Of a stretch of DNA of 64,000 nucleotides, positions 121 to 45,844 are shown piece by piece. The position numbers were made by a program, and so were the translations under genes. This stretch comes from Marvania coccoides. Its lineage: Eukaryota; Chlorophyta; Trebouxiophyceae; Chlorellales; Chlorellaceae. Where the stretch lies: the NCBI GenBank assembly GCA_963854735.1, contig OY978107.1, positions 379,501 through 443,500 on the forward strand. Direction: 5' to 3'. A model generated the notes under the pieces. The model saw only the letters and a program-made list of their open reading frames with translations, was not told the DNA's origin and made no database searches. Every line of letters begins with the position of its first letter. Positions within the stretch are counted from its first letter, which is position 1.

Positions 121-1395
121 TTATATCCAACCACGCAGCTTCTCGTACTCGCCAGCGTCATGGCTGGCTTTAATGAAAGAAGCAACCTGCTTCGGAGCTT
201 GCTGCAGAAACTGAAAAAGATTCAAAGGAGAAAAAGGGGAAGACGAAGAAGAAGATGGCGCGTCAGGGAATAAAGATGGGTAGGATGCCCGCATTGCTAC
301 CAACGAAGGGCATGTGCAATGAAAAACCATGTGCTCTTCGTCCTCGCAAGAACCAGAAGCACACAAGCGGCATGTCCGATGCGAATGCGGCCGCCCAATG
401 TAGCGCCCCGTCTCCACCCCAAGATGATGAGAGCTGCAGCGGAATCTTGCCAAAGAGACCCGCCGCGGAACCGAAAGGACAGAAGAAAGGTACGGCTGCA
501 AAATATAAGAACTCATTGTGGTATCACCGCCTCGTATTGTTGCCTTGTAAAAGTCAGTTTTCGTCCCCGATTGTTGACGGTAAAAATCCATGTAGCGTTG
601 GCGCATGGCCGCCTCTGCCAGCCTGGGGTCGTCCAGGTCGTCGCTCCCCGCGGGCACCACGCCGCTTTCCGCCACACCGCTTTCCAGACCTAAAGCGTCG
701 ATCAGGCACAGCACTTGCGCCGCCCAACAGCGCTGCGAAGATGAGTTTTGCAGCGCCAGCGCAAGGTTGTCCCGAAATGCTGCCTTGAGCGTCACCCTGG
801 TGTCAGGCAAGGTGTGGAGTCGCTCCCAGTACCTATAGATACGTTTCGCCCAAGCGCACGCCAAGGGGAAGCGACCAAATTCCCCCAGTGTGACCACGTT
901 GGCCGTGCCTTTGCGTACTCCCAACACACGCCGCAAGAAGGCTCGGTAGAATATCTCGCACTTGTCGTTGCCGTCACCGCCCACCGCAGCTGCCACCTGG
1001 GCTGGCCCCCAGGTCTCTACTCCGTATCCCAATGTTGGGATCACCACCGCATTAAAGAATTCGCCAAGAAGTCGTGCCGATGTGATCCCCAGCTGTGCGC
1101 ACCGCCGCCACATCACTGCCAGCGCCCCCCTCGCTGTTTTCAGCCGTGCCGCCGCTGCCACAGCACCAAAATCCCTTCCAGTCGTAAATATCACGCCTAA
1201 ATATTTGAACTCTGCCACCTCCTCCAGCTGCACCCCCCTGTAGGTAACCCGAACGCTGCTTGGCCCGCTGCCACCCCCCAGCGACATCACCTTTGTCTTT
1301 GCCAGGCTCAGGGTGAGGTCCCACTCCGCTGCGTATTCCGAAAGTGCCGCCAGCTGCACTTGTAGCCCCTCGATGCTCTTGGCCACCAGCGCCAG
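121..1395 (-). pseudogene. LINE reverse transcriptase, C-terminal fragment
   Basis: The frame opens at the last residues of the catalytic YADD-like motif (DDLALVAKS), followed by the thumb-type stretch 'LTLSLAKTKVM' and 'FKYLGVIFT', which are hallmarks of non-LTR reverse transcriptases. Near the C-terminus 'CRLCASGSCEDEEHMVFHC' gives a Cys/His cluster of the kind found after the reverse transcriptase in many LINEs. The frame ends at a stop at 121. The N-terminal half of the enzyme is missing because of an internal deletion, so the protein is not functional. Confidence 0.85.
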
Positions 1396-2174
1396 ATCAT
1401 CTGATAGAAATCATGGAGGCTGAGCCTGAGGGGGCAGTGGTCCAGCCTCTCGTGCGGTGGGGGTCCCTCTATCTCGATGCTAGCCTTGGAAAGGAGGTCT
1501 TGGTCAAGTAAAATATAGTCCGTGGTAGATTTTTGGTTACGTGAATTCCAGAAAGTAAAGTTACCAGAGGTGTCGCCGGCGACTCTACCGTTGGCGATGA
1601 AGATTTCGGCAATGGCCTCCTCCATGCCTAAAATCCATTTCCCCATCTCGTTTAGCGGCCGCGCAACATCTTCATTCCGCCGCTGCGCCGACGCTCCGGT
1701 GTGCGCGTTAAAGTCACCAGCGACGATTACGTTGCCCATTCCACTCGCTTGGGCAACCTGTTGTTCCAAGCAAAAGCATGCGTCAGTCATGTCAGGGTCA
1801 TTTGGTTTAAAATAGCAGGCGGCAATAAACAAATCCTGGGGCAGTCCGGCCTCTTTATCAAATCGGAGCCAAGAAAATTGGCCACCGCGGTAATGTTCCT
1901 CTGGCCAAGGGGTGGCAAATGATTCCAGGTCCAGAGAAACGTAGACCGCCACTCCCCCGCGGGCGCCTCCCGCCGCCGTTGTTGACGCGGTTGGGCGTGG
2001 GAAATTGTAGGCGCGGTAGTTTGGCACCGTTGGGGGAGTGTCTTCGTCGCTCAGCCATGTTTCTGTAAGGATGACAAGGCGCTCCCCTCGAAAAAGTGAG
2101 AAAACAGCGGACGGCTCGCTTTGGAGGAGGCCTTTTACGTTGAGCAGGAGAAGCCAGGGGCTGCGGCGGACCAC
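1396..2174 (-). pseudogene. LINE endonuclease domain (EEP/APE-like), truncated
   Basis: The frame contains 'LTETWLS', 'VAGDFNAH' and a C-terminal 'LDHCPL' motif. These correspond to the E, D-x-N and D-H catalytic motifs of the exonuclease-endonuclease-phosphatase fold used by LINEs to nick target DNA. It begins at about 2174 on the minus strand (this start is only the edge of the open frame) and is cut off at about 1395, where a deletion joins it to the YADD region of the reverse transcriptase with a one-base change of frame. Confidence 0.82.
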
Positions 2175-29223: not shown

Positions 29224-32200
29224 ATGAACGGAGGAGCGCCCTCAGCTCTCCTCATCCCCGCTGTGAAAGCTTCCACCGCCACCGCTGCCGAGGGGGCAGC
29301 CACAAGCGCCGGCAGCGTCCCGCCGGATCCAAACCCGCCTGGTGGTGAGTCTTCGGCACCCCAGGCCGCCCGGCCGGGCCCACATGGCGTACCTGAGGGG
29401 AAGCCATTGAAGATGCTGCGAGATCCTCGGCGGGCCGTCGCTGCTGTCGCCAACGGTTCGGCATCACCGCACGCGGAGCACGCTCAGCAACCTAAATCGA
29501 CTCCTTTCGGTGGGGGCCCCCCTCCTGCTTCGGCTGCTGCTGTGCTTCCTCCGCCCGCCTCTATTCCACCGCAGCCGGCTGCCGCTGTTGCAGACGCAGC
29601 CCCCCACTCCATCGCGCTAGCGTATTTTAGTGCCCAGGCGAAAATGGCTGCCGCTGCCACGACAGCAGCAGCGAAGGTGGAGGCCCCTGCAGCGCAAGCT
29701 GCTGTCGCGGCTGCGGCAGCCGCCCCTGCCGCTGTTGCTCCCTCATCTCCGCCTGCTGTCGCTGAACCTGCTGGGCCGGCTCCGGAGGTGTTCCCAGCTG
29801 GCCTCCAGGTCGAGGCAAGTATTGTATTTTATTGCCTACCTATAATTTTTGCTAAATTTGTTTTTGCTCAGATTCTAAAGCTGTCTATTTAACACTCTTC
29901 TTTTTCATATGCAGCTTCATCCACGGAAGAAGCAGTGGGTGCGTGCTTCAGACCCGAGCAACCCCCTCAGAAAATTCATCGCAGTCACGCTGACGCCGTC
30001 CGACGCCAAAATGAATCGAATGAGGCCGCCCAGGCAGTGGTGGACCCAGTTTTATGGCATCTCGGAGCCTTTGAGTGCCATTAATCAGAAGCTGCTGGCC
30101 ATTTCTGGCGACAATTCCTACCTGCTCAACGTCACGCCCTACGACAAGTACCCCTCTGAATTTTACATTCAAGGTAGGCAATTTCAACGCATTGTATCTC
30201 CATTTAAATGAGTTTCTTATCAATAATAGAGTCTTTTTTCTGCAATTAGGATGCACTGAGTTTTTTGGGCAGTGAATTGATGGCAGAGAAAATATTCCCA
30301 TCATATGTTTTTTTAAATATTGTGATCGACCTATTGCATTTTGATTGCAGGCTCAAAGGCCAAGCTGATGTTCCGCGACCTCAGCATCGGTCCTGGTGAC
30401 CTCATTCGCCTGGAATACGTCCCAGCAGGCGGCGACGAGGAACGGTACCTTTCAGCCGAGGTTGTGATATTTCACAGGGCGCAAAACCCCTATGCGGGCG
30501 CAGTGCTGGCCGCCGCAGCTTCCCGTCAAGCCAACACGTAAGTTTGTTTTTATAAATTTAAATATGGGGCTTTCTTTTTAAGCGTCATTAAATTTTGGGC
30601 TGTTGAGAAATTGGAGAAAACATTGCGTAATTTTGGCTTCTTTGCGATTAAATCGAGCTGGGCTCTATTGTCAACGTATGCAGGCAAGCGAAATCGGCTC
30701 TGAACCCAAAGCCCGAGAAGCGAAAGGCAGCAGCGACGGCTGAGCCTGGCGGAGGAGCACCCCGAAAAAGAAAGTTAGCGCCCAGAAGGGCCGACGCAGG
30801 GGACGCGTTGGCCGGGTTTGACTCCGATTTGGAAGGCGGCGCTGACTCTGCGGCGTGGGCGGCTTCTGGGAGCGAGGGAGAAGGCAGCGAAGGCGGCGGC
30901 GGAAAAAGAATGAGGGAGCCTCGCCGGCGGAGGGCTACAGGCGGCTGGCAGTTCCGCTACGGCGATGAATTTGCGGTAGGGGGCAGCTCCGACGAGGAGG
31001 ACGTGCGGCAGGCCATGGAGGCGGAAGAAAGGAGGGAGTTTGATGAAGAAAGGAGCGTTTCGGAATCGGAGATGGGGTCTGAAGAAAGTGGGGGGTATGG
31101 GGATTACGACATGGGTAATGGAGGGGTGGAGGTGGTGGCGCCGGAGGGACAGCCTGATGATGGACCGGAGCTGCAGCTGGGCGGCGGCGGCGGCGGTAGC
31201 ATCCCGACCTTCAAGTTTCGGCTGCCCCCCGATGCCGTGGCGGCAGATTTCGCCACTCTTAAACTCCCCATTCCCGCTGCTGCTGCTGTTGCGACAATTG
31301 AGAATGCTGATGCCCGGCGGCAGGACCGCGGTGGTGCTCGAGAAGCAGGCAGCCCCAGCCGCCTTCCCGAGCAGCGGCAGCAGCAGCAGGAACACCGTTC
31401 TCCAGCAGTTCTGCTTCCCCGCCCCTCCCCCAAAGCTCCTGATTCTTCAAAGGAGGGCAGCCCTGGGGCATTGCCACCCCCGCCCCGCAGCATCTCCGTG
31501 CGGCCTTCCCCTCAAAAAGAGCAGCGACAGCCGGATGCCATTAAAAATCAGGCAGTGGCGATGGGAGGAAGAAAGCCGAGCGCGCTGGACATGCTGGCAG
31601 GGGCAGCGCATGAGATTCCCATGTCCCCCCGCCCTATGTTTGCGCTGCGGGGAATGCAGAAGATCCGCGAGAGCGGGCAAGGCCTGGCGAGGTGAGTTTG
31701 TTTTGCCGGATTTTTTTTATCAGCAAAGTATAGTCAATGCGTGAATGGTGTGCAAGACTAAAAAGAGTAGTGATTTCATAGCATGCTGTGTATTTTATTG
31801 TATTGTATTCAGGGCTGCCAAGGTTGTCGTGGCTTGGGACAAGGCCATCAAGACCGAGGCTGACGCCAGTCTGAGCCTCACAGATTTTATGATCAAGCTG
31901 CAGGCGGGAGGACTGGTCGGCAAGTAGATTGAATTTATATGCTAAACGCAGTCTGGGATGTATTTTATTCAGAGAAATTTAGTGTTCTCTTAGTCTTATT
32001 ACTGCCTGCGTAAATTTGTCTCTGAAAATTATTTTCTTCACAGCTAAGCTTTCTTTCTTTTCTTCTTCTAATGTGAACCATGCAGAGATGGACAGCTATT
32101 TCTCGAATCCCGATTCCTGCACCGTGACTGTGGAGCTGAGGCTGACTGAAGCGGGGCTGGCCGCCGCAGCGCAACAAAAGTCCCAGCCGCTGGACGACGC

Positions 32201-32231
32201 CGTGAAGAGCCTGGTGTCAGAAAAGGGCTGA
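29224..32231 (+). CDS. Tandem-array family gene 1: B3-like domain protein (large form)
   Basis: Six exons (29224-29814, 29915-30173, 30351-30537, 30684-31691, 31813-31919, 32086-32231) encode 765 residues. Residues 1-197 are Pro/Ala-rich and end in the family motif 'EVFPAGLQVE'. The conserved domain (about 198-345) has 'KQWVRASDPSNPLRKFIAVT', 'LSIGPGDLIRLEYV' and 'RAQNPYAGAVLAA'. A 320-residue acidic and Pro-rich linker follows, then the C-terminal module 'FALRGMQKIRESG...KVVVAWDKAIK' and 'EMDSYFSNPDSCTVTVELRL'. The domain resembles a plant B3 fold (inference), so a nuclear DNA-binding role is possible. Introns 1 and 5 start with GCAAGT; paralogues have GT at the same position and phase. The start ATG was chosen as the first true ATG of the open frame. 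Confidence 0.82.
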
Positions 32232-32903
32232 GTGGAGTATCTGAAAGTGAGGGGAGCATAATGTACACACGGTGACACCGTAGGAGCCAAAATTTAAGCT
32301 GAAGTATGGTTTGCCATAAGAGCGATATCGATGATTAATGCCGTTTTTTTACATGGTTTTTAGGGTGAAAAGATCCTGCTGAGGCGGGCGTATCCACCTG
32401 CCAAATATTGGCAGCATAGAAGTTTGTAACTAATTATGACTAGTCCAGTATGGGAGCGCTTTGAAGTTGCAAGTTGAAATATCAAAATGCTAGATTATGA
32501 TGAATGGCGCCATTAATTCAGCGCGTTCTGGCTTCACAAGCCCAAGTCAGTGTACAGAGGGCGCAGGAGGAATAAAAAAAGATGATAATCGGTTGCAGTT
32601 GGGATAGTACAAATTTTTACTTCTCTCCCTGTTCATTTCATTTTTTGGGGGGCCTGGATTTTGGTAACTATTTTAATTTCTGTCCAGTCGTACACGAACG
32701 ACGAAGGGGAAAAATTGGACACTACTTTTTCTTTGTAGGGTCGCCACAACTTGGTCTTGCCAGCTGAATTCAAATGTACGCAGCTCGAGCTGATCCTAAT
32801 CTTTATTTGTGTCATAATTGTAGTTATACAATTTTACATTAAAAACTATACCATTTCACGTTAATAACTCGGTGGAGTACTTCTTCCATTGTTACACCAA
32901 ACC
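32232..32903. other. Intergenic within the array
   Basis: AT-rich, no supported gene and no visible remnant of the array family. Confidence 0.5.
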
Positions 32904-33230
32904 ATGATTGCCTTGCGCAATCTCATCGCACTCGTGCTCATGGTTCTCAGCCTGTTTGCTGGCAGTGCCGATGCCGTTCTGTGTGAATCTTACACCGACC
33001 AAGCGAGATGCCAAGGCAAGGTAGTAGACACCGGCGTTTGCCGCTGGAACGCCAACACCGCTGCCTGCTCCTCAGACATGGCAGGCCTCCCCGCTGGCAC
33101 CGTCGGCATCACCTCTGTCGTCGTCACCCCCGTCATGAGCGACCCCCTTCCCCCCGTCAAGAAGCCCGCCTCCAAGTCTCCTAAGAAGTCGTCGAAGAAA
33201 GGACGCAAGCTCAAGGCCTTCCGCAACTGA
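32904..33230 (+). CDS. Small secreted protein with four cysteines
   Basis: A single-exon frame of 108 residues starts with a clear signal peptide (MIALRNLIALVLMVLSLFA, cleavage likely after about residue 24). The mature part opens with four cysteines spaced C-x8-C-x9-C-x8-C, including 'CRWN', somewhat like a plexin/PSI-type knot. It ends in a Pro/Ser/Lys-rich basic tail (KKPASKSPKKSSKKGRKLK). No family was recognised. It is one of the few intronless genes here and sits inside the tandem array. It could be a cell-wall or extracellular protein. The ATG at 32904 was chosen because it begins the signal peptide. Confidence 0.72.
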   Translation: MIALRNLIALVLMVLSLFAGSADAVLCESYTDQARCQGKVVDTGVCRWNANTAACSSDMAGLPAGTVGITSVVVTPVMSDPLPPVKKPASKSPKKSSKKGRKLKAFRN

Positions 33231-34196
33231 AACTACCAGTGCTAGTAGTGTTATCTGTCCTTCCCGCTTCCGCCACTCCATCGCCAGAGCCCCTTGCAGC
33301 CGTAGCAGCCTAGCTCCACCATTGCCGCAGCGATTCTTCACCAACCAACTACCGCGACTTTTTCCATCTCACCTTCGCCAGCACAGTCCCTACCTATTCC
33401 GTCGTGCATATCACCATCGTGTGAGCGATGTTTTCGCTCCGTTCCGTCGTTTATTTTCTTTTTCTTGGTTTTCTGTTGTAATTTCGTTTCTTCGTTGAGA
33501 GCAATATAGCCAGTTTTTCGTTCATACTCGGCTGCGAACACGATATTGAAGATTTCTATTTATCTTTGCTTGCTTTCATTTTGAGTTCCATCCAAGGAAC
33601 AATTTGCTCTTATCTCCCCTCGCTTCCCTTTCCCGCTGTCTTCTTTCTTTGCCGTCCTGGGCGATGAGTGACAGCCTTTCCGTGCTTCTATTGGTTTGTT
33701 TATATCTTTTTGCTACCCTTATCTGTTTTGACGCTTGCTTTTCTTTTCGTCCTGGGCAGAGTCCCTAACGCTCTGCTCCGCTTTTGTTTGCTTCCATTTC
33801 CTGCTAGTTTTTTTCTATTCTTCGAGGGCAATGAGTGACCACCTTCCTGCTTCTTCTTCGAGGGCTTTCCTTTCCCTAATTTTTCGCTTGCTGTTCTTTT
33901 TGTGGAGGGCGAAGAGCAACCGCCCTTATTGCTTTGCTTTTGTTTGCTAATCCTTCCCTTCTGTCTGTTTATATCCCTTTATAATTTGGGCGATGAGTGA
34001 CCACCCCTTGCTGCTTCGCTTTTGTTCGCTTAACGTTCCTGCTATTTTTTGTCATTTCTTTTTTTGTCGTTTGACCGTCGTTGATTCCCTGCTGAATACG
34101 TACAGAGAAACATACGTATTAGTTTTTGACAATTTCTTTTTCAAATCTTTTTTTAGTAAATTTTCTCGCATTCTTTGTGTAAGAAATCTCATATAG
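33231..34196. other. Pyrimidine-rich region with degenerate repeats
   Basis: T/C-rich sequence after the secreted-protein gene. It contains an about 80-base degenerate tandem repeat (separate entry) and no supported gene. Confidence 0.55.
33655..34080. repeat. Degenerate tandem repeat, period about 80 bases
   Basis: A block 'gggcgatgagtgaccacc' or close variant recurs at about 33659, 33755 (weak), 33825, 33905 and 33987, each followed by a T/C-rich segment with 'gcttcgcttttgtttgctt'-like sequence. Spacings are about 95, 70, 80 and 80 bases. This is an old minisatellite. Confidence 0.7.
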
Positions 34197-34799
34197 TTGA
34201 CAGCGCAGAATGCGACAGAGGGGGGGCGACGGCGGCGGTACCTCCACAGCTGCCGCTGCCTGGGCAGCTTTCTGTATTATTATTTTCGGACATTCTACAA
34301 GGTAGTATCTCGGGCTGCAAAGCTCGGCAAGTATAAGCAAGGAATTCGAGACTCGTTTTTGAGCTGGAAGCTTGGCGGACCCCAGATGACAGCGCTCACC
34401 AAGCTGTGCCTCCCCCATTGTCACGATAAGTCCTTGCTGCCAACATGGATCAAGAGTCTCCCGATGCTGCAGAGGCTATATCTATTACAATGACGATATC
34501 ACGATGTTACCAGCTGGCTTACAAACCTGAGGGTGCTGAAATGACTGGACATTACTGGATGCACGCGTTCAGTGGTTGGCCCATCCGTCTTCGCCATGTT
34601 GAGGAGCCGCAAGGTGCAGGTGAAAGGAGCCGGAGCTGCCTTGGACAACCTTGTCGACGCTGCTCTTGATCCCAACATTTTTGGCAACCTGTTCAATACC
34701 AGGCAGGCTGCTGAAGACGCGATGCTATGGTTTGAAGAAAGTGCTGGAGTGCTGAACGTCCTTGTCAGCGGGGTTATCGCCGCTGAGGCAGCATGCTGA
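34197..34799 (+). pseudogene. Leucine-rich-repeat gene remnant
   Basis: The translation shows plant-type LRR units: 'LTKLCLPHCHDKSLLPTWIK' and 'SLPMLQRLYL' in one frame, 'NDDITMLPAGL' in a second and 'LTNLRVLK' then 'LDITGC' in a third, the last two separated by TGA at 34542. The third frame continues to a stop at 34799 through 'NIFGNLFNTRQAAEDAMLWF'. At least one frameshift and one stop break the reading frame, so this is a decayed fragment. The upstream boundary is uncertain. Confidence 0.55.
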
Positions 34800-35046
34800 A
34801 AAAGAAAGATAGACTGAATATTTGCAGGCAGCAAGTCGAAACATTTAAATTTATATAAATAGTTATTGTATCCAAGGTAATTTCTAACAGCAGCGCGAGC
34901 TCTTGAAATCAAATTCTCGGCTTTAAACCTTATTTTATTTTGAAAAAAACAGTTTCGACAAAATTTCGCGGCCTTCAGCAGCCTCTTTACATCGCAACGT
35001 TAATAAAACCCCCAGCTGTGCAACGAAAAAGCATAATATTGAAATT

Positions 35047-36549
35047 ATGGAGGCAACTTCAGCTGCAGTGCCGGCTGCTGAGGACCATCCCCAGCAGGAT
35101 GAAATCGCCCGGGTTTTTGGCCCAGGCTTCACAGGAGAGGTAAGACAATAATAAAAAATAGTATTATAAATATTCGGAAGTGTGCTTGGCATAAACTTCC
35201 CCCTGGCGGCGTTTCCCCAGCATGCTTCCAAAAATGACGTTTCCTAGTATCCACTTCTTCAGATCCACCCTCGCCGCCCTTCCTGGGTACGCGCCAGCAA
35301 CCCCGCCGATCCCAACTCCAAGCATTACATCGCTGTCACTCCCTCCGCCCCAGACATTGCCGCATTTATTCTGCGGCCAACCCACAGGTGGTGGCGGCCA
35401 ACCCACAGGTGGTGGGCTGAGTTCATGAAAGCTCCCCTCACCGAAAAACTGCCGTGCAAGCTGAACGTCGTCGTAGATGGCTCCACCTACGCGGTACACC
35501 GCGTAACTGATCACTACCCTGAGTACGACGACTTTAGAATTAAGCTGGGCAGCGAGCTGGGCGGACATGTGCTGGGACTAGAGCATGGGGAGCTGCTAAT
35601 AATGGAGCTGGTAGATGCTGCAAGGGATGGGGTGGTGGGGACTGTTAAGATGAGCGTGGTGGCGAAAGACGATAACCCCTGGGTCGACGAGGCTGAAGTT
35701 GTGGCCGCCAGAAGGCGAGGCGAGCCCCTGAGATAAAAACCTTGGATAGTAGTACTCGATGGTTTGAATATTATAGTATCGATAGGAGCTTAAAGGACTG
35801 TGTTTTTTCATCTTTGCAGACTTGCGTCAGGAATGCACTCGGGAAAGAAGCAGGGGGAGAGAAAAAATGCAGCTCCTAGCGACGACGTGCAGCAGAAGAA
35901 GCCGAAACGAAAGGGAAGCCACCCACAGATATCGTTTCCTGACGAAGGCCCTCTGCCTCCCTCCCCTCTCCTTCCTTCCAAAAAGCCCAAGGAAAGAAAA
36001 ATAGCCGCTCGGCTCCTCGCTGCTGCCATTCGCAACCCTGAAAGAAAAGAAACCCATGATGAGGCTGAACAGACGGCCGCGCTCAGGACAGCCCCTTCCA
36101 CGGCGCCTGTAGGCGCAGCTGCAACGCTGAGCTTGCAGGAAAAGCAGCCAACATCGATGGTGCGTGTAGTGAGTCAGAAGCGGTTGAAAAGCGACGGGAA
36201 GGTAGTTGGAGCAACGCTGGTGCTGCGCTATGAGAGGAAGAACGCGGAAGCTGTGAACCGTCATCTGCAAGAGCTGTCGATGCAGCTGGAAGATGCCAGT
36301 AAGAAAGAAAACTAAATTTTTCAATTGAAGTCACCAGGCGCAGCTTTATACGTTGAATTTCCTTTCTAATTGCATTAATTTGCCGCAGAAATTGATTTGG
36401 ATTTCGAGGAGGATGAGAGCCTGGCGAAGGTGCTCATCGAGCTGCCAGCTGATGCTGCGGTGGCAGCGGCTTCTGAGGGGGGCAGTGGCACGCAGCAGGG
36501 CTGCCCGCTGGTGATCAAGCAGGCGATAGCCAGGGTGCTTGCAATTTAG
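35047..36549 (+). CDS. Tandem-array family gene 2: B3-like domain protein
   Basis: Four exons (35047-35139, 35263-35714, 35820-36298, 36389-36549) encode about 394 residues. Exon 1 ends with 'IARVFGPGFTGE'. The conserved domain has 'PSWVRASNPADPNSKHYIAV' and 'GLEHGELLIMELV', and ends 'NPWVDEAEVVAARR'. A basic, likely nuclear-localising linker (KKPKRKG) leads to the C-terminal module 'VSQKRLKSDGKVVGATLVLR' and 'IDLDFEEDESLAKVLIEL'. The second donor is uncertain: the exon stays open to a stop at 35733, and only AG|GCGAGG at 35715 gives the phase 2 junction shared by the family. The domain has a doubled heptapeptide RPTHRWW. Confidence 0.78.
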
Positions 36550-37143
36550 AATTGTTTTTAGAAAGCTGAGCGATACAGCGGAGGGATTAAATATGAAACA
36601 TAGCGTAATTTTTGAGGAGTATTTCGCTGAAGGAGAGACGATGGAGTCTTTGCTGTATTTTATTTCCATGCTGCGCTACTATATTTGCATACTTTTGGTC
36701 ATTTTCCCGCTCTGATCTAACGCTGGAGAGCTCATCCATTCTGCATCACCGCACTCTGCGCTGCGCATGCACAAGGGGTTCTGAAGTGCTCTTGGCGTTT
36801 ATCTTGGTGCGGGGAGGTGATGTGTACTGTAACAATATATAATATATATTATCAAGAACGGCTTCTCAAGCCTTAAAAACCGCAGTCGAATTTTTCATTA
36901 GGTAGACAGATTTTTGGCGAGTCATTAATTCCGCTCCTCTTTACTTCCGACAGCTTTTTCATTAAAAAAAAAAATTTTGGTTCTCGCGCTGTTTCTGCAG
37001 GTGGCGATTTGGCCTCTACCGAAATCTTCTACAAAATTTTATCCTTTATAAAATTATCTCCAAGACCTGTTCATTGCCCGTTGTCCTTCCTGGTTATTTC
37101 CGAGGTTTACATTTGAGCCCGCATTCCATTTTGAGGGAGTCCG
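36550..37143. other. Intergenic within the array
   Basis: AT-rich, including an AT palindromic stretch near 36835-36850. No gene is supported; an undetected first exon of the next array gene could lie here. Confidence 0.45.
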
Positions 37144-37180
37144 ACAACAACAACAGCAGCAGCAGCAACAACAAGAAGAA
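37144..37180. repeat. CAA/CAG microsatellite
   Basis: Thirty-seven bases of CAA, CAG and AAG triplets lie directly before an ATG at 37181, at the 5' end of the third array gene. Probably untranslated leader. Confidence 0.7.
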
Positions 37181-37208
37181 ATGGCGGCGTCTTTGATTCC
37201 TTGGCCAG

Positions 37209-38562
37209 GAGGACGCGGCTGCTGAGATATTTGGACCTGGAATAATTGAGGAGGTAATTGTATTTCTAAATATATTTAGCTCTTTATCTGCATGAATGCA
37301 AGAAAAACACCATCCTCAATATTTTTCCCTTCCATTTTTAGACGCACCCGACAAGGCATCAGTGGTTGCGCGGCAGCGACCCCATTAACCCTCAAACCAA
37401 GTTTCTGGCGGTCACAATGACTGCCAGTGACATAAAAAGCAATTGCTTTCGCGCCAGCAAGGACTGGCTGTGCTTCTTTCTTGGGACGCCAGAAACGGAA
37501 ATTTCGCATCAAATCCCAAAGCTAAGCGCCGTTTTTGAGGGTTCGTCGTACGATATCAAGGTGATGCAGCGAACCCGCCCCGAATTCATTCTGCGGATGG
37601 AGACAGTCGTCTTTCAGAGCGTTCTGCGGTTGAGGCTCCGAGACCTGCTTATCATGGAGCTGGTGAAAAGCGCGGGCAATGAAGCAAATGCAGGCGAAGA
37701 AGAAGCGCCTGCAACCATAAAGCTGAGCGTGCGGCGCAGAGCTGAAAACCCCTGTGCCGATGACCTGTTGACTAAGCTGGCAGCAATGCAAGTTCAAATA
37801 GATTAAATGTTTTCCTTGATATAGAGCAAACAGCAACAGCATATTCATTTACCTAATTGTCAAATAAAAATTCTGGTTTTCAAAACAAGTGTAGGTCTGA
37901 GCGGCGTGCGAAATCAATCTACAAGCATAAGGTGGCCCTCGAGGCCGCTTCAGATTCTTCCGACGGTGAGGAGCTCCTATACGACCAGGAGCATGGAGTG
38001 AAACTGGCGCAGAAAGGAAGCAAAGGTGCAAAATCAAAGAGGAAAAACGGCGGCAGTGACTCTTCGCCTGCTGCACCAAATACTGTCCCGCCGAGCTCCA
38101 AGGCTGCTTTCTTCTCTGCTCCTGCTGCTGAAAAGCTGACCTTACTGCGCCTGAAGTCTCAGAAGAGGCAGAAGCGAGGGGAGCGCACTGCTGGAGTGAA
38201 CCTTGTTCTGACGTGGCACCCTGAAGTGAGCAGCGTTTCCGCCGTCAGCCGCAGCCTGCATGAGTTCAACAAGAAGCTAAGGGACGCAGGTAAGACTGTT
38301 TTCTAGTCAATTTTCCCTGTATTTTGGGAGGAAATTGTGTAACAATAAACGTACTTAATTAATAATAATATTCTAATTAGTATACTAATGGCGTTTATTA
38401 TTTATTATTTTATGTGAAGAGATGGATTTTGAGATGGATGACGACGCCTGTGAAGTCAGTATGGTGCTGGAGGAGCCTGAATCGGGGGTCGCAGCGGGGC
38501 CAGCTGAGCAGGGCATTCCTAAGGCTGTCAGGCAGGCGATGGCGATGCTGCTGGAGGTTTGA
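37209..38562 (+). CDS. Tandem-array family gene 3: B3-like domain protein (5' end unresolved)
   Basis: Exons 37209-37253, 37342-37787, 37895-38289 and 38420-38562 give 342 residues with the family phases 0, 2, 1. Exon 1 ends 'AAEIFGPGIIEE'. The domain has 'HQWLRGSDPINPQTKFLAVT' and 'LRLRDLLIMELV'; the linker is basic and Ser-rich; the C-terminal module is 'LKSQKRQKRGERTAGVNLVL' and 'GIPKAVRQAMAMLLEV'. Intron 2 begins AT|GCAAGT; no GT gives the right phase before the stop at 37804. The nearest ATG (37181) is one base out of frame and a stop lies at 37194, so exon 1 may be spliced at the CCAG before 37209 to an unseen exon, or the copy is damaged. Confidence 0.7.
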
Positions 38563-39652
38563 GCTGCTGGACGGAGAAAAATTTCGTTAAAAAAGAATTT
38601 GACATAAAGAAGAGAAAAAAAAACAAGACGGTCGCAGAAAATTAAAATTAAAATCTTACAGAAAAAAACAAAGCAAAATTGGATTAATTGGCAACAATTC
38701 TATACTGTGATGACATGCAGAAGATTGCATGTACAACTTACAGTTGTTACTTTGCTAACGTTTAATAACGATGCAGACGGTTTCATTGGCAGGGACGGCA
38801 AGCGAGAGCGCATACTGCTAGACGCTCAGCTCAGACAGCACTCCGCACCCTGTAGATTAAGGCTTAAAACAGTCAGGAGTTTTTCGCTTTGCTCCAAATG
38901 AAGGGGGTAGTAATTTAACTTTCTTTCACTACACTGCAGCTACACAAACACCGTTTTTTTTTGAAATTATTCGAGATATATTATCACAAAAGAAAGGTTA
39001 AACGGACGTCAGCATCGCTGTCTGAGTGCCTTATGAATTTATATCTGTGATGAAAATATTTTTCATATTAAAATTCCAAAAGGTCTGCCTTCTAATGTTA
39101 AATTATCATAATAGAAAGATTTAAGGATCAGGCACGCATTAGCTGCATGGAAAGAAATATCAAAAGGAAAGTTGCCACTGAAATGGACCCTCGACGACGA
39201 TAAAAATAAAAACCTCGAGGGCTTTCTAGAAGATAAAAATCGTTTCTTTTATGATGCAATTATCGCCGCAATAAACAATTAGATTGTCGGGCTGTTTCAT
39301 TTTTAGAAAATATTATCACGGATTAGTCAGGTTGCAAACGTGAGCGGTGAGCGCATGAAAATGATGGACGCAATAAAATGCGTTGTAAATCGCGCCTTCA
39401 ACATTATGAATTATATTACATTATATTATTTCCTGAGGGATCTTGTTGAATACACCACAGAGCGGATCAGCGGAGCGTTGAGGACATGCAAGAATTTTAT
39501 TTAGTCAAACATCCAAACAAGGTTGCGAAACCCCTCGATTTTGAATTAATTCAAATCTCAAAATTCTGAATCTTGTCTTATAAATACACTTCAGGCCTGC
39601 TAGGCTCCTCGCCTGCAAAGAATCTGAATCTCCCCTTCCAGCATCCAAAAAA
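38563..39652. other. Intergenic within the array, about 1.1 kb
   Basis: Strongly AT-rich sequence with short inverted A/T tracts. I see no coding remnant, RNA gene or array-family fragment. Confidence 0.5.
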
Positions 39653-41118
39653 ATGCAAGCAGACGCATCGCCATCCTACCCAACAGTATTCGGTACAGGC
39701 TTGGACGAAACCGCCGAGGTGAGCAAAGCTCTTGCTGGGCTCCAAGGCTGCCGTAAAAAAACCCGCTCGAAATATTTCCCAACGCTGTTCTCTGACAGGT
39801 GCACGACTACAAGATGACTTGGCTGCGAGTGCACGACCCCAACGTCCCTACTGCTAGGTTTCTGGCCGTCACCCTCACGAAATCTCAAGCTACTAGGGAT
39901 GCGAGGCTGATTCCTCCGCCGCAGTGGTTGTCGTGGCTGCTCAACAAGTCAGAAGAAAGCATGAAGGAGATGAAAATCCTGAAAGTGCACGCCAATGGAA
40001 AGGCATACGACGCCAGGGTTTCTTCTATTCGCAAACACGGGGTTCCTATTATATTTACAGAAGTTTTTGCCCAGTTGAAAGTGAATGAAGGCGACCTGGT
40101 GCGCTTCGAATACGCAGGCAAAGAAGAAGACACGCAGGGCCTAGGAGTCAACGTGGAGGTGTGGTCAAAAGAGCAGAATCGCTGGGCAGAGGCAGCGCTC
40201 GGGGCGGTGGCCACCAGAGCATGGAAGCGAGTTTTTTTCCTCCTTTTTTCCTGCACTGCTTTCCGATTGTAGCATTTCCTATACTATAAACGCTAGAACT
40301 AATGAATAATATGCTTTGTATCGTACCGCAGGCGGAAGAAAAAGGAAGGCTCGGCGCAAATTTTGGGCGCCGAGCTCTCCAAAGACGTCGGCCATAATGA
40401 AGTAAGAAAGGAAGAAAGGGACGCAGAAGACGAGGACGTGAAAATTGTGCTTTCCGATAGCGAGGTGGCGGCAAAAAAGAAAAACCGCTCCGGCGTTCCA
40501 TCAGCAGGCCTGGTAGACTTGCTTCATCCTCAGCAGCCTCCGGTTGCCTCAACTCCGCTCGAGAGGCAGCTTGCGCGCATTGACAGGGTCTTTGCGGCTC
40601 GCCGCCCCGCTGCTGATGGTGCTGCAGCCGCAGCTGCTGATTCTGTGCAGCAATTTCAGCCTGAGAAGGCTCCCTCTGCCACCGCTGCTGCGACTGCGAC
40701 TGCCGCCCTGCCAGTGGGCTCTGACAGCTGCTGCCCGCTGCGGCTGAAGGCACAGAAGCGGCTGAAGGCTCCAGGAGGCGAAATCGTGGGGCTGAAGCTG
40801 GTGCTGACTTGGCAAAAGGAGGAAAGAAGCGCCGCTGATGTGGTCCAGTGCCTCTCTGATCTGGGATTTGAAGGCGCAGGTAAGATTTTCTTAATGAATA
40901 ACAGTGAGATATGTATGTATCACTATATTCAATGCTATAAATTATGAATACATTTCGTTAAATCAACTTCAGCGATGGAATTTGTCATCGACAAAGTAGC
41001 CGGAGACATCTCAGTGGACCTAGAGCTGTCGGATTCGGACGATTCTTCTATAGAAAAGGGGCCTGGAGGCGTGCCCGTGCCCGTGTGGCGGGCGCTGGAA
41101 AAGCTGTTGGGAGCATGA
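39653..41118 (+). CDS. Tandem-array family gene 4: B3-like domain protein
   Basis: Four exons (39653-39718, 39799-40226, 40332-40879, 40973-41118) encode 395 residues and form the clearest copy of the family. Exon 1 is 22 codons ending 'TVFGTGLDETAE'. The domain reads 'TWLRVHDPNVPTARFLAVTL', 'IPPPQWLSWLL', 'VFAQLKVNEGDLVRFEYAG' and 'NRWAEAALGAVA'. This order (hydrophobic strand with T-L-T-K-S, P-x-x-W, then L-x-x-GD-x-x-x-F) parallels B3 domains. The linker is mixed acidic and Ala-rich; the C-terminal module is 'LKAQKRLKAPGGEIVGLKLV' and 'GVPVPVWRALEKLLGA'. Intron 2 starts AA|GCGAGT at the phase where paralogues 1 and 5 have GTAAGT. Confidence 0.82.
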
Positions 41119-42336
41119 CCGCTGGTCTCGTGCACAATTTTATTTACCCCTGGCGCATTCTTATTTGCATTAATATTTTTATTTTATTTTTTTAATTTGC
41201 TTGTTTGACTCGAATCTAGCTGTAATGCATAAAAATAAAGGAGGGAATGCTGTTTATATAGCCGCAAACGCAAACGCAGCAGTTGATATCTATTGAATGG
41301 CTGAAGCCCGTGGACTTCTAAAACATGTCATACTAATATAAATGCCGAAGGAAAGAAACAAAAGCTCAAGAAATGATGATGATGAGGGTGCTACAAGCCT
41401 AAGTCGCCGCAGGCGGGGCAGGGATCGAAATTGTAGGGGAATGGGCTACAATAGACCTATCCGGGGTCTATGGCCATATTTCGTATGGCTACAGGAGGCA
41501 TACTTCAGGAGGGTACGACGCTCTAGCCCAAGCCGTAATAGAAATCCCGGGGGTCGGCACTCAAAATATTAAGAGTAAAACTCTAGAAAATGACGGATAT
41601 ACTCCAATCGGGTGCTGCCCGCCAGGGACACAGAGAAGGGACCCGGAAATTTGCAGCATGGTGCGTCCGTTGTCCTCGCTCCCCAGTGGGAGGCTGTGGG
41701 CTGTGAGTCTAAACAAAACAACAAGAAGGCCCTGATACAGCTGGAGCAGCTGGTCGGACCGGAAACAAAGGAAATCGAAGAAAACGCAAGAAAATTCAAT
41801 TATTTTTTGTATGTTTTATTTTATTAAAGAAGGAAACACAGGAAAATCATTGGGCCGGCGGCCCCGCCACCCAAAACTCGGCAGCAAGGTCCCAGCGCAA
41901 GAAGGGGTGCATCGCCCCGCCTCCAAGCGGCTGGTAGCGGGGGTCTACTAGCCTCCTCCACCATTTCCCGAAACACCTCTCTGGCCCGCTTGACGCCGGC
42001 GGCTTCCAGCTCGGCCCCCCTCCTCACCCTGCGGTCACCCAGAGACGTGGAGAAGCGAACGTGACGGCATGCGGCGGCGGCGAGCAAGAAAAATGGGAAA
42101 TTGAAGAACTGGGGGAAAAAGAAAGCAGACTTGAAATGAAATTTTATTTTTAGCGAGAGACCATAGATTAGTCTTAATTCAATTGTCTGGCATTGGACGT
42201 CGTTGCTTATCAAATCAAAGGTCTTAGAAAGACGCAGGCTGACTCTCAAGTCTAAAAAAACTGTTTGAAAAAAATAAAAATAAAAATAAAAATCTAAATA
42301 TCGCAGTCTCATTGAGACGAAGCAATTGCTGACGAA
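41119..42336. other. Intergenic within the array, with an unexplained GC-rich island
   Basis: About 1.2 kb separates array genes 4 and 5. At 41830-42070 a GC-rich island has an open minus-strand frame with coding-like composition ('GVKRAREVFREMVEEASRPP') ending at a stop at 41824. It has no recognisable domain and no start; a retrotransposon 3' fragment is possible. The rest is AT-rich. Confidence 0.4.
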
Positions 42337-43555
42337 ATGCAAACCGCGCTGCGCCCAGTCTTTGGGAGCGCCCAGGCCGACGAGCAAGCCGAAGTTAGAA
42401 AAATATATAAATAATAAACGCCGCCCTCGTCGAAATTGGGATCCATTCTAAATAATGTAGCTTCACCCCTGTAGGTACATCTCACAAAGCGAGCGTGGGT
42501 ACGTCCCAAAGAAGCCGGAGATAGCGCTCGCTCCCTCGGTGTGACTATGACCCTAGGAAATGTCAACGCCGGCAGCATATCGCCGCCAAAGCCCTGGCTC
42601 GCCTGGCTGATGGAGGGCTCCGAAAATTCTGCGCTCTCTCTGAAACCGATTATAGCATTTCACAGTGGAAATTCGTATAAACTATATTTATCAATTTCAG
42701 ACACCCGGCCAACTGCTTCGTTGATCCGCTGCAAACCCCTCTTTTCCAAATTCAAAGAAGGTGACATTCTCAAGCTCGATTTCGTGGCGGACGCGGGAGG
42801 GGCGTACGTTCATCCTACTGTGAGCGTGGAATCGTGGCCGCGGGCTGAGAACCGCTGGGCGGATGCTGCACTGGGTCATGTGTTTCGCAGATACGGAAAG
42901 TAAGTATTGCAAGGGGAAAAAGCATGTTTAATTATGCAGCCGTGGTTCAAAAGAATAATCAATACTATGCAGGAAGGGAGAAAAGCAGCAGGTCGCAGCA
43001 GGCGGGTCAAGCAGTGGAAGCGATGATGATTTCTCTCGAGGACCTGCAGAAAAGAGGGGTTCTTCAGCTGCCCCCTCCGCCGCCGCTCTAGAGAAGCAAT
43101 TGGACCACTTGGGCGGGCTTCTGCAGCAGAGGCGTGCGATCGAAGAGGCCCGTCACCCTGAAAGGGCAGCAGCGTCCCTTGAAGGCGCAAAAAAGGCACC
43201 GCTGCCGCCTCAGGCAGCAAAGCGCTCTTCCGCCGCGCCTGCAGCTGCCGATGCTGCTGGAGGGAAGTCCCCTTTGCAGCTGGTGTCCCAAAAGCGGTTG
43301 AAGAATGCAGCTGGAAAGGTCACTGGGGTCAATTTGGTGCTGCGATGGGACAAGAAAGAAAGAAGCGAGAGTGAAATCGCCAGCAGACTGTTTGAGCTGG
43401 AGCTGAAGGACGCTGAGTTGGACTGGGAGGTGGTTGAAACGTCATGCGAGCTGCGCGCTGTGGTGGAGCAGCCTTCAAGCGTGCAGCACGCGCAGCTGGG
43501 CAGTGGGATTCCGGCAGCGGTGAGGCTCGCTGTGCAGCAGCTGATGGAGCTATGA
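42337..43555 (+). CDS. Tandem-array family gene 5: B3-like domain protein, last intron lost
   Basis: Three exons (42337-42393, 42475-42899, 42973-43555) encode 354 residues. Exon 1 (19 codons) ends 'PVFGSAQADEQAE' with donor GTTAGA. The domain has 'RAWVRPKEAGDSARSLGVTM', 'SPPKPWLAWLMEG', 'FSKFKEGDILKLDFV' and 'NRWADAALGHVF'. The C-terminal module is 'LVSQKRLKNAAGKVTGVNLV', and it runs without a break into 'ELKDAELDWEVVETSCEL' and 'GIPAAVRLAVQQLMEL'. In paralogues a phase 1 intron interrupts the protein at that place, so this copy has lost the intron cleanly. The exon 2 acceptor CTGTAG at 42471-42474 was chosen because it restores the conserved VHLTKRAW start. Confidence 0.82.
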
Positions 43556-44059
43556 AGCGCTACATTAAAAGGGCGAATTGAATGGAATGTTGGAGAGGGT
43601 AGTTTGATTGGTTGAAGAAAGTTCACTATATTTGATGACCTTTGAGTCTTGGATGGCATGCTTGTTTTGCGGGTATTTTCTTGCAAATGACGTGCCAAGA
43701 TGGATAAGATTAATAATGAAGAGCTGGGGAGAGGTGCAGCAGAGGCAGGGACTCAGAGAGGGAGGGGAATTCTTTCTTAAAGGAATTTCGTGAGCTTCTT
43801 GCATGGCTTCTTGAGGCCCTGACGTCTGTTATTCACTATATTTCACAACAGCTCGTGCTTTTATTAATCCCATAGCGCTGCAGCTCCGCAAAAGGCCTGG
43901 GCAGCCAACCTTTTTCACCACACCCTTTTTTCCATTATATTTTGTTCTCCTCTCACGAGCAATTTCAGAGCACAGTGACAACATTCTCAGCTTAAACGTG
44001 CAGCAATTGTAAACCTTGATCGCCTCCAAGGTTAAATCCTCGGGCTAGGAGAAACCCTT
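43556..44059. other. Intergenic within the array
   Basis: No coding remnant, RNA gene or repeat was identified. Confidence 0.5.
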
Positions 44060-45844
44060 ATGATGCAAGCCCCGACCAACATTCATCACTTTTCGCAGCT
44101 TCCCTTCGGAAAGTACCTCAAGCTTGATGATGGGTCGCTCCTCAAGATTGAAAACAACTCTGATGATGAGCTGACCGACGAGGACGCTCCTCCTGCCGCC
44201 ATCCCATCTCACGAAAAGGCGGCACAGAGATTTATAATTCACCCAAACGCTGCTGAGCAGATAGCTCGCGCGCGCCCTGATTTTGACCGCGGTTTTAGTC
44301 GTCCCTCTTTGCCCTTCGCGGCCCCGGCGGCTGTCGAGAAGGCCCTTGCCTTTGCCTCAGCTGCAGGCCGTCCTGCAGCGGCAGCTGTATTTGGCCCTGC
44401 TGCGCAAGTTGAGGTGAGATAGTTCTGCAAAGCACGACATAATGTATAAATACGATGTGTAAATCGCATCCGAGCTATGCAGTTTAGTTTTATATTTAAT
44501 GCTTTTGTCCAGGTCCACGTAACAAAGAAGGCCTGGCTGCGCGTCTCCAACCCTGCTGACCCCAACTATCGCACTCTAGCTCTGACTGTGACGAAGGATG
44601 TAACTAGCGGCACGGCGCGTAGCCCGCGCCCTTGGCTGGCCTGGCTGCTGTGCGGCGAAGAGAAAGTAACCTTTACCCAAAACGGCAAGATGACAGCGTT
44701 CGCTGGTGGGAAGCCCCACGTGGTGGAATTTGTAAGTCCGATTTCACGCTCGCACGACATTGATGTCCTTTTAGGCAGGCAGTTTGTCCGTGATTTGAGC
44801 GTGAAGCCCGGGGACCTCCTGTGCTTTGAATTCGCGGGGCTGGACGGCCCAAACAAGCTGCCGAAGGTCAATCTGACGGTGTGCAGCAACAACCCTAGGG
44901 CGGAGGCGGAGTTCACAGAGATGAAGCAAGGAAACCGGCAAGAAAAGCAAAGGCAAGCTGCTTTTTTTCTTTTTTCTCTCAGAACAACACAAAATTCAAT
45001 TCGAATTTACAGAACTGATTCCTTCTTCTGGGCCGCTGCAGAGGGGCGAATGGGGCGGAAACCCCCGCTGCTGCCTCGAGCCTCAAGCGAAAGGCGCAGC
45101 AGCCTCCAGAGGAGGCTCAGCGGAATTTGAAAGGCAGCCTTCGCCCTCCGCCTGAACTCGCCAAGAGAGTCGCTGCCCCGCGTGCCAAGCATGCAAAGCA
45201 GCAGGAGCGGCCGAAGAGCAGCAGTGACCGTGGAAGCAAACGGACGACTCGCTCCTGCATCCCTCTCTCTCCCCCTGTCTCCGGAGCTACCGCTCCCTCG
45301 CGCGGGGGCGCTGCCAGCGACCGCGCCCCGCTCATTCTCAAGTCTTAAAAGAAAATTCGCGGTGGAGCTGACGATGGTGCGATGCAGTGGGAGGTGGTTC
45401 TCGAGTGGGACCCCAGCCTGCGTGCGCCCAACGAAGTCACCAGCTCGCTGATGAAGCTCGCTGTTATGCTGGAAGGAGTCGGCGAGTGACTCAAATCTTT
45501 AAACAATCTGTCTTTTTAATTTCTTGTATCGATAGTCGCGTCCCTGTATTGGTATTGTGGATTCATGCTTTTTAATTCATTTTACTGCTGCAGAGATGTA
45601 TTTTTCAATCATCAAACCGTCTTGCAGAGCGACGGTGCATCTCACTCTGGAGAATGGAAGGGCAACGAAGGACCTGCACGCCGCTGTTCTGGCGTTGCAG
45701 AGTGCTTGAATGATAGAGAGCGTGTTGACTGAGATGAAATATATGAACGCAGCAGCAGCATCGGCTGGAGCCGAGCCGGCTGAGCCAGGCATTCCAGCGG
45801 CTCTTCGGCAGGTGCTGGCCAGACTGATGGAGTTAAAGGTATAA
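44060..45844 (+). pseudogene. Tandem-array family gene 6: B3-like domain protein with two in-frame stops
   Basis: Exons 44060-44413, 44513-44952, 45042-45481 and 45594-45844 fit the family structure and phases 0, 2, 1. Exon 1 is long (118 codons) and ends 'AAVFGPAAQVE'. The domain has 'KAWLRVSNPADPNYRTLALT', 'SPRPWLAWLLCGE' and 'FVRDLSVKPGDLLCFEFAG'. In the C-terminal module the conserved Gln of S-Q-K is replaced by TAA at 45346-45348; a second stop, TGA at 45707-45709, lies in exon 4, yet the downstream frame still ends in the family signature 'GIPAALRQVLARLMEL'. Both later donors are GC (AG|GCAAGC, G|GCGAGT). Either it is a recent pseudogene or it makes a 366-residue protein lacking the C-terminal module. 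Confidence 0.75.

Follow-up and report, generated by a model that had tools for sequence, protein, structure and literature searches.

The B3 fold is a seven-stranded open barrel, and in the auxin response factors (ARFs) the work is divided between B3 and PB1. In the part of the survey drawn on here, B3 families with many copies and fast evolution belong to the land plants, the B3 domains of the REM family have rapidly diverged, VRN1 binds DNA without sequence specificity, and Chlamydomonas and Volvox have single B3 genes, among four green algae searched (PMC2688026). In the sections of two further papers used here, five B3 sequences represent three chlorophytes (PMC5379062), and chlorophyte B3 and PB1 lie in separate proteins (PMC5873896). 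Here we describe a tandem array of six genes, g1 to g6, in a stretch of 64,000 nucleotides from the green alga Marvania coccoides (the window; C11:379501-443500, where C11 is contig OY978107.1), together with further members elsewhere in the genome (22.46 Mb in 15 contigs); their shared domain resembles B3, and our literature searches turned up no title or abstract opening on such a family in an alga.

The six genes lie on the + strand between 29224 and 45844 and have four parts in a fixed order: first an exon that closes with (V/I)F(G/P)..E, then a domain of ~140 residues, a charged, low-complexity linker and, at the C-terminus, a module of ~90 residues (C-module). This order, and the positions of the genes, had been proposed in an earlier note on the same DNA, and our gene models and domain searches bear them out. 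The family extends past the array, making the pattern larger than had been seen at first: single-protein searches of the genome found the domain in at least 14 copies (a lower bound) on five contigs, eight on C11 (six in the window and two at 368.4 and 370.6 kb), three on C4 and one each on C2, C5 and C6. The g4 domain matched g5 (E 2e-13), g6 (6.5e-12), g1 (3.9e-6) and g3 (2e-4) as well as five copies on other contigs (1.9e-10 to 2.8e-4); it missed g2, which was found by the C2 copy at 1.6e-6. On balance these genes probably encode nuclear regulators that bind DNA, a B3-like family that is specific to this lineage, has diverged strongly and carries a C-terminal interaction module; of this, the barrel fold, the binding to DNA, the location in the nucleus and the role of the C-module are what we infer. 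In such proteins the B3-like domain would grip DNA through the face of the open barrel, and the C-module would pair the proteins with each other or with partners, as B3 and PB1 are combined in the ARFs, with a C-terminal piece presumably unrelated to theirs. The family grows by tandem and dispersed duplication, and its copies decay.

The likeness to B3 is carried by profile-profile comparison. With hhalign, 11 family domains matched a B3 alignment (eight rows from PDB entries, one of them partial, plus the two B3 domains of this genome) with a probability of 87.4 and a score of 38.5 over 83 columns, in a register that kept the T..S, the following Pro, the NGK and the L..GDL..FE; with the PDB rows only, these values were 83.2 and 36.5. 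None of 200 shuffles of the family columns (maximum 19.9) and none of 200 shuffles of the B3 columns (maximum 17.0) reached the score. When the rows of a 14-member alignment were left out one at a time, all 14 profiles scored between 31.4 and 36.2 at the same place, and disjoint halves of the family both aligned there too (the six window copies with probability 70.7, the eight others with 44.1). As a yardstick on the same scale, RAV against REM scored 46.5 and LAV (including the two B3s of this genome) against REM 40.6, while the 11-row family profile scored 33.2 against RAV types alone and 33.1 against LAV types alone; as controls, it scored 9.0 against PB1, 14.2 against the family's own C-module and 16.9 against the double-psi barrel (DPBB), which was rejected on that score as a source of the GD motif. 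The B3 signature comprises T..SD, a later Pro, the Trp of a W-x-F strand and L..GD, all of which are also seen in the PDB rows; the family keeps T in 13/14 members, S in 10/13, P in 11/14, and G and D in 12/13 each, and the W-x-F Trp in 0/14. The B3 parallel drawn in the earlier note from motif order gained support at the profile-profile level (38.5, shuffles ≤19.9) and none from Pfam or from a B3 profile used alone. We regard the domain as B3-like, supported at that level of comparison, and DNA binding would be a reasonable step from this likeness.

Over the 83 columns, the motif order and spacing of the family are like those of the RAV/NGA and LAV (VAL, LEC2, FUS3) B3 domains. Unlike these, the family has a Trp shortly after the Pro and no W-x-F Trp (each 14/14), has no Pfam B3 match, and carries a conserved VHP....W.R before and NP.A.A after its B3-like part. 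The land plant REM family, as the portion of the survey consulted describes it, likewise has numerous copies, diverges fast, includes some tandem duplicates and conserves B3 poorly (PMC2688026); unlike REM, the present family does not match a two-row REM set by profile, has a linker and a C-module, and is algal. In plan the proteins are like the ARFs, with an N-terminal B3-type domain, a low-complexity middle and a small C-terminal domain, except that by profile the last is not PB1. The canonical chlorophyte B3 is also present, in two genes (L001 and L002) of the same genome that stand beside the at least 14 diverged copies and have their best PDB matches to VAL1 (E 1.6e-13) and LEC2 (1.4e-8).

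Several results weigh against a relationship with B3. Pfam gave no B3 match in five domain-exon products (E≤1) or in 11 members (E≤10; the scans left out members C11m, C11p and C5), and its B3 model matched at two places in the genome, neither of them in the family. Our B3 profile alone, run against 3635 open reading frames (ORFs), ranked g4 6th at a non-significant E of 4.4, with no other family domain in the top 25, and with the PDB rows only it ranked g4 13th, over half its length. The hhalign match dropped to probability 73.3 and score 33.5 when three divergent copies were added (14 rows), and the REM set (one of its two rows partial) scored 19.2 with probability 3.3 and gave no alignment. 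To these must be added the absence of the W-x-F Trp from all 14 members and a domain charge that, in the longer copies, lies anywhere between +7 and -5, so that some members may have lost their contacts with DNA. Searches beyond B3 were also unproductive: the domain profile found nothing better than E 0.12 among PDB sequences, and the 14 domain members gave nothing in NCBIfam but one match at E 0.049. The lack of a significant match by Pfam or by the B3 profile alone, and a very fast divergence (median end branch of 0.99 changes per column in our tree), would suit a convergent likeness, in which the domain would have some other small, beta-rich fold and the genes would belong to another fast-evolving system, e.g., of recognition, defence or mating; however, we consider this unlikely, as the profile-profile score is about twice that of any of the 400 shuffles and is present in disjoint halves, and the DPBB barrel, which also has a GD motif, gives no such score. 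It is also conceivable, though in our view rather unlikely, that the domain has a B3 fold without specific DNA recognition and serves in loose DNA binding or as an adaptor between proteins, an idea discussed for REM; the high variability of the domain and its charge speaks for this, as do the rapidly diverged REM domains and the non-sequence-specific VRN1 (PMC2688026, in the part cited), whereas the retention of T, S, G and D at the rates given above and the basic stretches in the linkers speak against it.

The divergence of the family also bears on whether its copies still function. Identity of the copies to g4 is 22–34%, and in four of five compared pairs silent sites are near saturation (pS 0.72–0.80) with pN at 0.40–0.48, which points to long purifying selection. 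The fifth pair, C4a/C4b, has a dN of 0.35 against a dS of 0.44, and there is a stop inside the C4b domain. In addition, pieces of 41041-43438 recur as a recent duplicate ~30 kb downstream at C11:452-454 kb (L057:8813 to L058:671), with 97% identity over the longest piece (567 bases) and 84–95% in the others; this duplicate lacks the first exon of g5 and nearly all of the second, and hence nearly all of the domain. Damage is seen in g6, C4b and the recent duplicate. Taken together these data read as birth and decay superimposed on long conservation, and the turnover that had been suspected for the array is supported by the recent duplicate, the broken g6 and C4b, and the C4a/C4b ratio. One could go further and regard the array as mostly a graveyard, with one or two functional genes among pseudogene copies that have no present role; besides the stop in C4b, the duplicate with hardly any of the domain and the C4a/C4b values, the broken C-module of g6 and the failure to find an in-frame start for g3 agree with this. 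Nevertheless, we hold it to be very unlikely, since each of the six window copies keeps an open frame through the domain (in g1 across an intron) despite the near-saturated silent sites of the four other pairs. Our tree speaks neither for nor against one common origin of the array in the window: a single inner branch out of 11 reached the strict mark, and the only groupings to stand out were g2-g3 (89/94), g4-g5 (84/80) and C4a-C4b (99/98).

The C-module was aligned from eight full copies, 12 first halves and 11 second halves. A simple propensity average, together with inspection by eye, weakly predicts strands in the first half, then helices and one more strand, with a helix at the C-terminus. 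We found no match above noise for eight copies in Pfam or for the g5 copy alone in viral contigs, and the module profile reached no better than E 0.46 among PDB sequences, so the statement that no named family has this module held up in these three sources. Three identities were tried for it: PB1 was rejected (three IAA/ARF PB1 rows; hhalign score 11.2, probability 0.2), B3 was not supported by profile, and a repeat relationship between its two exons was rejected with a score of 8.0, 100 shuffles reaching up to 10.5. The g5 C-module identified that of g4 at E 3.8e-6 and those of g3 and g2 at 4–5e-3, and by profile C-module sequence lies downstream of the domain, within the stretches examined, in 11/14 copies, all but C4c, C5 and C11m (for C4c and C5 the downstream stretch examined was only ~1.5 kb). 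Scores of this profile are circular for the copies used to build it; those outside it scored at best 9e-7 (C11p), 2.4e-4 (C4b) and 6e-4 (g6). The motif of the N-terminal exon, sought with one regular expression ahead of a GT or GC donor, was present in 10/14 copies and missing in C2, C4c, C11m and C11p. C-module fragments without a domain were also seen at C11:369.2 kb, C11:454.0 kb and C5:897.1 kb, with a possible further one, a weak match, upstream of the C6 copy. The C5 fragment is an orphan first half (897080-897238, L065) downstream of an ATPase gene that by eye is proteasome Rpt2-like, and at C11:369242-369828 (- strand; L055:7242-7828) a C-module half lies downstream of an ORF with the Cys motif C-x5-C-x2-K-x3-H-x-G-F-C, no B3-like domain being detected between them. 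In L002 a similar Cys motif comes after the canonical B3, and a scan of the loci and window, 342,828 bases with overlapping loci counted, gave only these two as distinct matches to the pattern; Pfam gave a sub-threshold Zf_WRKY19 match.

Within the array, the gene models (with motif searches for the first exons and profiles for the domains and C-modules) show how far the common plan is kept. In g1, which is larger (765 residues in our model) and has two introns more, exon 1 (29224-29814) is long and ends in VFPAGLQVE ahead of a GC-AG phase-0 intron, the B3-like domain spans 29915-30537 (exons 29915-30173 and 30351-30537), the low-complexity linker exon (30684-31691) includes at its end the degraded start of the C-module, and the C-module follows at 31813-32232 (exons 31813-31919 and 32086-32232). 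In g2, exon 1 (35047-35139) ends in VFGPGFTGE, the domain (35266-35709) is followed by an uncertain donor, and the C-module (36157-36551) is split by a phase-1 intron at 36299-36388. The exon end of g3 (37209-37253, IFGPGIIEE) has no in-frame ATG and has an in-frame stop upstream; its domain (37345-37782) precedes a GC-AG phase-2 intron and its C-module (38142-38559) contains a phase-1 intron at 38290-38419. For g4, exon 1 (39653-39718) ends in VFGTGLDETAE, the domain (39799-40212) comes from the single-protein genome search and profile, and the C-module (40738-41119) has its phase-1 intron at 40880-40972. Exon 1 of g5 (42337-42393) ends in VFGSAQADEQAE, its domain (42475-42885) is followed by a phase-2 intron at 42900-42972, and its C-module (43274-43555) is unsplit. 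Lastly, g6 has a long exon 1 (44060-44413, ending in VFGPAAQVE), as g1 does, and a domain at 44513-44923 found as in g4, where the gene model ends; its C-module region (45361-45706, from profile) is fragmented into the pieces 45379-45474 and 45569-45703 (weak) with a stop ahead, where SQKRLK would sit, and looks decayed.

The earlier note had intron phases 0, 2 and 1 at the same places in these genes. The phase-0 intron ahead of the domain stands in 6/6 (that of g3 via the exon motif search), a clean donor for the phase-2 intron past the domain is confined to g1, g3 and g5 (it is doubtful in g2, GCGAGG, and in g4, GTTTTT, where the intron was modelled as phase 0), and the phase-1 intron within the C-module is present in g1 to g4 and absent from g5. 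Similarly, the C-module is shared, while the SQKRLK taken as its conserved hallmark is degraded in g1 and replaced by the stop in g6. Three of the 17 modelled introns have a GCAAGT donor (g1 29815, g1 31920 and g3 37788), i.e., are GC-AG introns. The linkers have basic stretches, and clusters of K[KR]x[KR] resembling nuclear localization signals occur in 3/5 of them, with only g4 clearly above shuffles (8 of 1000 shuffles matched its count, as compared with 51 for g2 and 196 for g1).

Protein-database searches identified no protein at E 0.01, either with the domain alignment (1215 candidates) or with g4, g5 and g2 aligned at full length (scores for 8000 candidates). In the same database the canonical B3 of L001 found 11 of 22 candidates, their identity to it reaching 72% along its length. 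Because the searches, which did not extend to named algal genomes, depend on shared five-residue words and comparable lengths, they could overlook distant relatives; the suggestion that the family is lineage-specific is consistent with two null searches in a database that holds canonical B3 relatives, to the extent that distant ones did not escape. Two single-protein scans of viral contigs gave no relatives. The genome, that of a photosynthetic organism (chlorophyll-binding matches at 21 places), had no match to ARF_AD or AUX_IAA in searches run without a positive control. The window also holds an Mlo-type and an ALMT-type gene, and no RNA families were found in it. Between g1 and g2 lies a small gene (32904-33230) whose product starts with a hydrophobic stretch, contains cysteines and ends in a very basic tail, with a weak Pfam match to a Paramecium surface antigen (E 0.009, below the cut-off). 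An ORF at 124-1410 (- strand) has a reverse transcriptase match of E 1.1e-5, also below the cut-off, and the minus-strand ORFs beside it, up to 3554, resemble by eye the remainder of a non-LTR (long terminal repeat) element.

In animals, the KRAB zinc-finger genes are rapidly turning-over arrays. By analogy, we speculate, while giving it little credence, that this alga independently built a large B3-type regulator family with a new C-terminal interaction module, arriving at the ARF plan by convergence and keeping it in a rapidly turning-over, KRAB-like array, possibly for silencing mobile DNA or for setting species-specific gene control. The C-module is a candidate new small protein-interaction domain, and, as the family lies below the reach of the usual domain searches, its like may be missed in other algal genomes. 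If the B3-like reading is true, a many-copy, diverged family of this kind in an alga would mean that such an expansion happened more than once.

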